64,000 nucleotides of DNA from Methanomicrobiales archaeon. GTDB taxonomy: Archaea; Halobacteriota; Methanomicrobia; Methanomicrobiales; JACTUA01. Location of the stretch: positions 62,001 through 126,000 of the forward strand of contig JACTUA010000001.1 of NCBI GenBank assembly GCA_015660865.1, read 5' to 3'. This document shows positions 40,215 to 41,175 of this stretch, piece after piece (within the stretch, counting starts at the first letter, position 1; the number at the start of each line of letters is the position of its first letter). Position numbers and translations under genes: made by a program. Under the pieces are notes generated by a model. That model saw nothing but the letters and a program-made list of their open reading frames with translations, had not been told where the DNA came from and ran no database searches.

Positions 40215-40664
40215 TCAGTACTTGGAGAGCCCCGCGACCTTCTCCTCGGCGTTCTTCCGGAGTCCGTGGGCGACAGCGTCGAGGAAGGATCTCCCGGCGA
40301 CCGAGAGGCTCCTCCCGTTCTTGTCCTTTGCCACGAAGCCCGCGGCCTCGAGCTGCTGGAGGACCTTCCGGAGGGACGACCCGCCGCCCTTCCTGAACTG
40401 GAACGGGCTCGAGCCCCGATCCCTCTTCCCCCCGTACGCGGTGCGCATCCGCTGCACGCCGACCGGCCCGTCGATGTAGAGCCTGCGGAGCACCGATGCG
40501 GCCCGGATGAACCACCAGTCGGGATCCTCGGGCGGCATCTGCTGGTGGACACCGGCCTTGGCGAAGGCTGCCCACACCGGTGGCTGGATCTCCTTCCTCT
40601 TCTTCAGTTCCTCGGCCACCTTCGGGATGAGGAGCCCGGCCGGGATATCATAGATCGTTGTCAT
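40215..40664 (-). CDS. rps19e: Small ribosomal subunit protein S19e
   Basis: A 149-residue protein (PPVWAAFAKAGVHQQMPPED, DWWFIRAASVLRRLYIDGPV, RTAYGGKRDRGSSPFQFRKG, VLQQLEAAGFVAKDKNGRSL) typical of S19e. It is the first gene behind a strong TATA box at 40725-40737, so it heads the run of genes down to 39 kb. A 172-bp hairpin array stands just upstream of that promoter. Confidence 0.96.
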   Translation of the reverse strand: MTTIYDIPAGLLIPKVAEELKKRKEIQPPVWAAFAKAGVHQQMPPEDPDWWFIRAASVLRRLYIDGPVGVQRMRTAYGGKRDRGSSPFQFRKGGGSSLRKVLQQLEAAGFVAKDKNGRSLSVAGRSFLDAVAHGLRKNAEEKVAGLSKY

Positions 40665-40724
40665 ACAGTCACTCTCGCCCTCGCGTCTAACTCTCTCGCA
40701 GTCTTTACATATTCGTCAGTTGCG

Positions 40725-40737
40725 CTTTTATATATTT
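40725..40737 (-). promoter_or_regulatory. Strong promoter TATA box before rps19e
   Basis: On the minus strand AAATATATAAAAG preceded by CG, a near-ideal archaeal BRE/TATA. A transcript would begin near 40705 and carry a leader of about 40 bases. Confidence 0.7.
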
Positions 40738-40747
40738 CGAGCCTGTA

Positions 40748-40919
40748 GGGGGATGTCAATCCCCCGAAGGAGAGGGAAATAATTTCCCGAACCCGAAGGG
40801 TGAGGGAAAGGATTTCCCGAGGCGCGAGGCTGATCTCAATCAGCCGAGTGAGAGGGAACGTAGTTCCCGACCCCGTATGGGGATCTCAATCCCCCGAGGG
40901 TGAGGGAAAGGTATTTCCC
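40748..40919. repeat. Tandem array of seven alternating short hairpins
   Basis: Two hairpin types alternate in the order A B B A B A B, with start-to-start spacings of 24-30 bases. Type A has a 6-7 bp stem and the tetraloop GTCA or CTCA: 40748-40765 (stem GGGGGAT), 40828-40845 (stem GGCTGAT), 40879-40894 (stem GGGGAT). Type B has a 6-bp stem and a 3-4 base loop: 40774-40788, 40804-40818 and 40904-40919 (stem GGGAAA), 40854-40868 (stem GGGAAC). Stem changes are compensated on the other arm, and all but the last are followed by CGA. A minor hairpin ACCC-GAA-GGGT is at 40791-40801. No coding capacity is seen. Confidence 0.85.
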
Positions 40920-40944
40920 GTGCCCGGGTGCCCTGCCGCTCCCC

Positions 40945-41175
40945 CTATCGCCTCCTCTCGAGGACCACGGTCCGTCCCCTGACACCCAGGATCTCCCCGC
41001 CGGTCTCTGCCGCAAGGGCCTCGGGATCCATCTCCGCCCCGCGGAGGAACCGCACCTTCACCGGCTTCCGCCCCTCGAGCTGCCGCCGTATCTCGGCGAC
41101 TGCCTCCGGTGTGCACCCCTTCTTCCCGATCCAGACCGTGGGCTTCAGGGTCTGCATCGGGGATTTATCCGTCAC
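40945..41175 (-). CDS. YhbY-like CRM-domain RNA-binding protein
   Basis: A 76-residue single CRM domain (LKPTVWIGKKGCTPEAVAEI, RRQLEGRKPVKVRFLRGAEMDP, ETGGEILGVRGRTVVLERR). The GKKG loop replaces the usual GxxG RNA-binding loop at the same place. YhbY binds pre-50S particles in bacteria. It overlaps the RNase P protein gene by 11 bases and has the hairpin array 26 bases after its stop. Confidence 0.9.
   Translation of the reverse strand: MTDKSPMQTLKPTVWIGKKGCTPEAVAEIRRQLEGRKPVKVRFLRGAEMDPEALAAETGGEILGVRGRTVVLERRR

Follow-up and report, generated by a model that had tools for sequence, protein, structure and literature searches.

The best-known mosaic palindromic repeats are those of bacteria, which occur alongside their transposase. 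Copies of REP usually number more than 100 per genome (PMC2817692), and the RepRanger survey predicts REP-like sequences in archaea as well, as single hairpins by structure, in six archaeal genomes (PMC12306157). Template switching has been reported to create hairpins and to maintain them through concerted changes (PMC8794818). Archaeal U-tract terminators, which are read by aCPSF1, mostly operate without a need for hairpins (PMC8716108). No report of arrays of the kind described here was found for Methanomicrobiales in the open-licence literature. We analysed a 64,000-nucleotide stretch of a Methanomicrobiales genome (the window) that carries such an array, and consider it probable that this array is a member of a dispersed, low-copy, fast-turnover palindromic repeat family working like the bacterial REP/BIME mosaics.

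The hairpin array and the gap that holds it

Seven perfect hairpins of two kinds, A and B, were found at 40748-40919 in the order A B B A B A B and at steps of 24-30 bases (Table 1), which upheld the original prediction. The stems comprise 6-7 pairs and differ between copies while staying paired, as had been described, the only unpaired position being the T x C outside A3. Across 2000 dinucleotide shuffles of the stretch, the mean was 0.26 hairpins and the maximum 2, compared to the seven observed. Elsewhere in a 449 kb genome sample that included the window, at most three such hairpins were encountered in a row, in the one other run detected. RNA folding of the array gave z = -6.0 on the + strand and z = -4.6 on the - strand, and Tandem Repeats Finder assigned the array periods of 30 and 50 bases. 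It was noted that the A loops within one array all have the form NTCA in a single orientation, while the B loops have 3-4 bases, and B4 is indeed the only copy to match GGAA-N6-TTCC. Because a 3-bp hairpin occupies the A slot between B1 and B2, the alternation of A and B is nearly strict, and this small hairpin may be a remnant of, or a substitute for, an A hairpin. No Rfam family reached its gathering score in the window array or in the paralogous arrays described below. An earlier suggestion of a terminator field describes a possible role, although no T-run follows any of the window hairpins, nor any GC-rich hairpin on either strand across 40600-41000.

The neighbouring genes are all on the - strand, where an Rpr2 gene (PF04032) lies upstream and is followed by the yhbY-like CRM-domain gene, the array, the rps19e promoter and rps19e. 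The array starts 25 bases past the yhbY stop codon and its end abuts the promoter, which includes the TATA box on the - strand. The predicted position near this TATA box and the CRM-domain gene was confirmed, and the TATA box is conserved in relatives. The comparison of the syntenic yhbY-rps19e gap that had been proposed as a check told against a tie between the array and rps19e. This gap was readable in 28 relatives from the same family and order; it measured 63-273 bases in those with both ends placed, and it contained the promoter or an AT-rich counterpart and no array. The sister species (G001) falls outside this gap comparison (yhbY not found, rps19e a fragment at a contig end). Since the gap of the relatives holds the promoter without the array, the array is an addition specific to this lineage, placed upstream of an older promoter, and it is not a conserved part of rps19e control. 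A leader, attenuator or autoregulatory RNA of rps19e had been among the suggested roles, and the array does lie between yhbY and rps19e and on the strand of both genes. Being upstream of the conserved promoter, however, it would stand outside any transcript initiated at that promoter, and none of the 28 relatives has it in the corresponding gap. We regard this role as extremely improbable, and it was ruled out by synteny.

Table 1. Positions of the array, its neighbours and its paralogous loci. Window features are numbered from the first letter of the window; the last five rows are loci elsewhere in the same genome.
Feature	Position	Strand	Description
rps19e	40215..40664	-	PF01090
rps19e promoter	40725..40741	-	CTCGAAATATATAAAAG; conserved in relatives without the array
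Whole array	40742..40925	.	three A-B units and B2; covariance model matches; sixth locus of the genome
A-B units	40742-40794, 40822-40874, 40872-40925		covariance model matches
Hairpin A1	40748..40765	.	GGGGGAT-GTCA-ATCCCCC
Hairpin B1	40774..40788	.	GGGAAA-TAA-TTTCCC
3-bp hairpin	40792..40800	.	CCC-GAA-GGG; between B1 and B2, in the slot expected for A
Hairpin B2	40804..40818	.	GGGAAA-GGA-TTTCCC
Hairpin A2	40828..40845	.	GGCTGAT-CTCA-ATCAGCC; compensated stem
Hairpin B3	40854..40868	.	GGGAAC-GTA-GTTCCC; compensated stem
Hairpin A3	40879..40894	.	GGGGAT-CTCA-ATCCCC; outer T x C unpaired
Hairpin B4	40904..40919	.	GGGAAA-GGTA-TTTCCC
yhbY-like CRM-domain gene	40945..41175	-	PF01985
rimI-hmgA locus	C4:22.9k		between GNAT acetyltransferase (rimI) and HMG-CoA reductase (hmgA) genes, convergent
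ilvC locus	C4:37.7k		between ilvC and flavodoxin gene
DUF4346-JAB locus	C4:91.9k		between DUF4346 gene and JAB gene
UPF0146-RFC locus	C7:59.7k		between UPF0146 gene and RFC-like AAA gene, convergent
DUF3467 locus	C6:289k		5' edge of DUF3467-like gene

Dispersed copies and their turnover

With the array sequence as BLAST query, three other places were found in the same genome (G000), and covariance models of the A-B unit identified 11 strong units at six loci, in agreement with the original prediction that further copies would exceed chance. All six loci are intergenic or at a gene edge, and five of the six lie directly 3' of at least one stop codon. The paralogous arrays flank unrelated genes, with two loci between convergent genes, and these neighbours likewise speak against a tie to rps19e. 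Locus gene names were taken from Pfam, except that ilvC and the DUF3467-like gene were named from a reading of their translations. The congener G001, the one other genome of the genus examined, contained three units, and across 232 genomes of the order no match below E = 1e-6 was found outside these two, so the family is restricted to this lineage at that threshold. Exact-pattern scans of genome and virus collections found the sister MAG (JAJRCS01, isolate OWC_0070); the other exact matches were single, occurred in unrelated organisms and appeared chance-like. Many weak R1/R2 matches (E 1e-4 to 1) resembled protein-coding sequence and were set aside, and among the weak matches L147, L152, L154 and L157 were real arrays.

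These copies also bear on the proposal of an operator cluster, in which a DNA-binding regulator such as NrpR would control rps19e from the array. The palindromes are located upstream of the TATA box and B4 has the operator form GGAA-N6-TTCC. That form, however, is not conserved in the promoter, as only B4 fits it, and arrays follow stop codons or lie between convergent genes. Copies differ in the letters of their stems, both inside one locus and from locus to locus (B stems read GGGAAA, GGGAAC, AAGAAG, AAAAAG and AGGAGG), which makes an operator cluster unlikely, and no array is present in the rps19e promoter region of relatives. We consider this proposal very improbable and rejected it on the stem variation.

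Orthologous sites of G000 and G001 were then compared by alignment. Between rimI and hmgA, approximately 100 bases of array lie directly 3' of the stop codon in G000 and the site is cleanly empty in G001. The reverse was noted at the C16 site of G001, where an array is present and the orthologous G000 site (C7:218.7k) is empty. At the DUF4346-JAB site, the B hairpin is common to both species with a changed loop and the A hairpin is missing in G001, so that a single hairpin was gained or lost. The UPF0146-RFC site of G001 is without the array, but its intervening sequence is otherwise not alignable. From these differences it follows that, even within one genus, species differ through gain, loss or trimming of the family. 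No clear target-site duplication was seen at the two best empty sites.

Several additional features were noted around the copies. Both the UPF0146 gene and ilvC have their stop codon inside a B hairpin (L100:3730-3745 and L099:3738-3753), so that the repeat is part of the coding end, and the sister species, which has no array at the UPF0146 site, encodes a different UPF0146 C-terminus. At C6 ~289.2k (L101:3230-3340), the array copy is flanked by two near-copies of TGAACCCGAGSGAGATCTC, of which the upstream one carries an ATG that opens a frame ending after 17 codons. The main frame of the DUF3467-like gene has no ATG, GTG or TTG start before its conserved part, which gives the appearance of a gene start split by the repeat. 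In front of the C16 array of G001 (L094:1830-1930) are more palindromes with GTCA loops, GGGCTCATCCCGTCAGGGTGAGCCC and variants, and these palindromes start at the upstream gene's stop codon. Another type of hairpin array was encountered at C3 ~17.4-17.7k of G000 (L024:1310-1615), with apparently divergent genes flanking it and with 10-bp stems that vary in step and alternate with longer GC-rich hairpins. Its stems include GAAGATCGGC-ATCA-GCCGATCTTC, GAAGATGGAC-GAAT-GTCCATCTTC, GAAAATGGAT-TGAT-ATCCATTTTC and GAGAATCGCC-TGTT-GGCGATTCTC, and it resembles the L147 and L154 arrays of other genomes.

Pairing across copies and the arrays behind ilvC

Across 12 A and 16 B hairpins from both species, 173 of 180 cells were Watson-Crick pairs. 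By hand count of this table, 25 cells differ from the commonest pair on both sides and 4 are single-step cells (G-T or A-C), two of which favour each strand. In the unit alignments, the paired cells and the covariation score were above those of every shuffle and every slid register. Hairpin symmetry is therefore maintained across copies. Any of several processes would keep this symmetry (selection on hairpins in RNA or DNA, gene conversion, template switching), and since template switching at palindromes yields the same pattern, the compensatory changes are uncertain as proof of selection (PMC8794818). The original prediction was correct that pairing is kept, but its further claim of selection on pairing is uncertain.

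Through the weak model matches, arrays of the same design with different stems were found elsewhere in the order, in a different family. The arrays of G146 and G148 are located directly 3' of ilvC, like the ilvC array of G000. In G146, GC-richer and AT-rich hairpins alternate with linkers of the form GAACnGTGA, and one of the internal copies (CAGTTCAAGAAATAA) duplicates the terminal part of this genome's ilvC gene, except that a different stop codon is used. In both G146 and G148, the AT-rich B hairpins have T-rich 3' arms. Among approximately 90 ilvC 3' ends, arrays or single hairpins were recorded in some members of one genus (G188, G183, G162, G184 and G166, with a decayed one in G173), and most of the others examined were plain T-rich ends with no array. 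The region is bracketed in G162 and G188 by two near-copies of the gene end, TTCARRAARTRA. The design, the linkers, the NTCA loops and the common ilvC site suggest that the ilvC arrays of this family are homologous to the window array, with stems that differ. As a separate observation, many genomes of the same family (genera g13 and g15) encode an IlvC with a Lys/Ala/Pro-rich C-terminal extension of ~20-40 residues (L170, L171, L174, L178, L182, L185, L190, L251, L257 and L266-L268), and other IlvC proteins end at QFKK or QFRK.

The first ilvC hairpin has the coding end with its stop codon as its 5' arm, and its downstream arm tracks the codon differences. Over seven genomes, 94.4% of the cells pair and 9 of 13 pairs carry changes in both arms, a level that none of 500 shuffles attained; this structure was picked by eye on the same sequences, which biases the paired percentage upward and leaves the double changes as the stronger evidence. 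G-U pairs in the ilvC sense occur at one pair in two genomes. Such features could describe a functional 3'-end RNA element whose stem-loops would stabilise the mRNA 3' end, stop read-through or bind a protein, with selection on RNA pairing driving the compensatory changes. Consistent with it are the five of six loci directly behind stop codons, the stop codon and double changes of the ilvC-end hairpin, its G-U pairs, and the T-rich 3' arms in G146 and G148. However, most relatives have no array at the same sites and keep only T-rich ends, one locus is at a gene start, and the G183 and C3-locus arrays are upstream of genes. The window hairpins also have no T-run behind them, archaeal terminators are mostly hairpin-free (PMC8716108), and the single-step intermediates of the array's own genus have no strand preference. 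We consider a 3'-end RNA element a possible but doubtful explanation.

Proposed origin and comparison with known systems

The dispersal, the gain and loss between close relatives, and the arms matched despite letter change argue for a fast-turnover repeat and not for an rps19e control element. In such a repeat, two palindromes would alternate with conserved linkers in blocks of one to seven hairpins, which would have been inserted into intergenic DNA or amplified there, in most cases immediately 3' of a stop codon. One block may have entered, or grown, in the space separating the yhbY end from an rps19e promoter that was already present. Spread could have occurred as a non-autonomous element mobilised in trans, or through the copying of gene-edge units in tandem and to ectopic sites, and the symmetry would be kept mainly by palindrome-directed copying (template switching, gene conversion), perhaps aided by selection. 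As RNA, the array would fold into consecutive stem-loops downstream of yhbY and would be tolerated at the gene edge; possible effects, judged from its placement, include 3'-end protection, hindrance of read-through or separation of yhbY from rps19e. The covariation of the ilvC hairpin with the coding end across genomes would fit selection on RNA too.

A RAYT-type Y1 transposase (PF01797) was not found at E <= 0.001 in the array's own genome, which is 99% complete and in which positive controls were detected, and mobility through such an enzyme of that genome was rejected. That no mobilising enzyme was found, that the two best empty sites gave no clear target-site duplication, and that the copy number is low for a REP family all count against the REP/BIME-like reading. 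As an alternative that we hold only tentatively and think rather unlikely, an undescribed Methanomicrobiales element may lay alternating hairpins at gene edges, with the first hairpin built on the host gene. Its 5' arm would be the coding end and stop codon, and its 3' arm an inverted copy re-matched in each species. If true, this would represent either a new type of small palindromic repeat able to copy its target or a new 3'-end RNA device of archaea. For the REP/BIME-like repeat that we favour, a low-copy archaeal version without a transposase and with empty sites in a sister species provides a test case for the origin of hairpin repeats, and for whether pairing is kept by RNA selection or by template switching. 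Compensatory changes between paralogous copies alone do not prove a functional RNA.

Compared with the U-tract terminators read by aCPSF1, the family is similar in that several copies lie directly 3' of stop codons and some relatives have T-rich 3' arms, whereas the window copies have no T-tract behind them. Hairpins made by template switching also have perfect stems with both sides changing together, but that is a mutation process on existing RNA genes (PMC8794818), whereas the array belongs to a dispersed repeat family. The archaeal REP-like sequences of RepRanger are likewise palindromes in intergenic DNA, although Methanomicrobiales are absent from the six archaeal genomes of that survey and no description of alternating arrays was found in it (PMC12306157). 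REP and BIME, the closest known systems, differ from the family in copy number (usually more than 100 per genome for REP, compared to 11 units at six loci here and a single qualifying array in the 449 kb sample; PMC2817692) and in having one palindrome in alternating orientations, where the array has two unlike palindromes in one orientation. Their GT(A/G)G head at the foot of the palindrome is not constant here, as A heads read GTAG, GGAG, CGAG, GTAT and others, with GTAG in a few A copies only, and the RAYT Y1 transposase that accompanies REP has no counterpart found in the array's genome; the host, moreover, is archaeal. What the family shares with REP and BIME are short (20-40 bp) extragenic palindromes at dispersed sites (six loci), mobility in the form of occupied and empty orthologous sites at rimI-hmgA and C16, and a regular alternation with conserved linkers as in a BIME mosaic, in both cases lineage-specific and often at gene ends.
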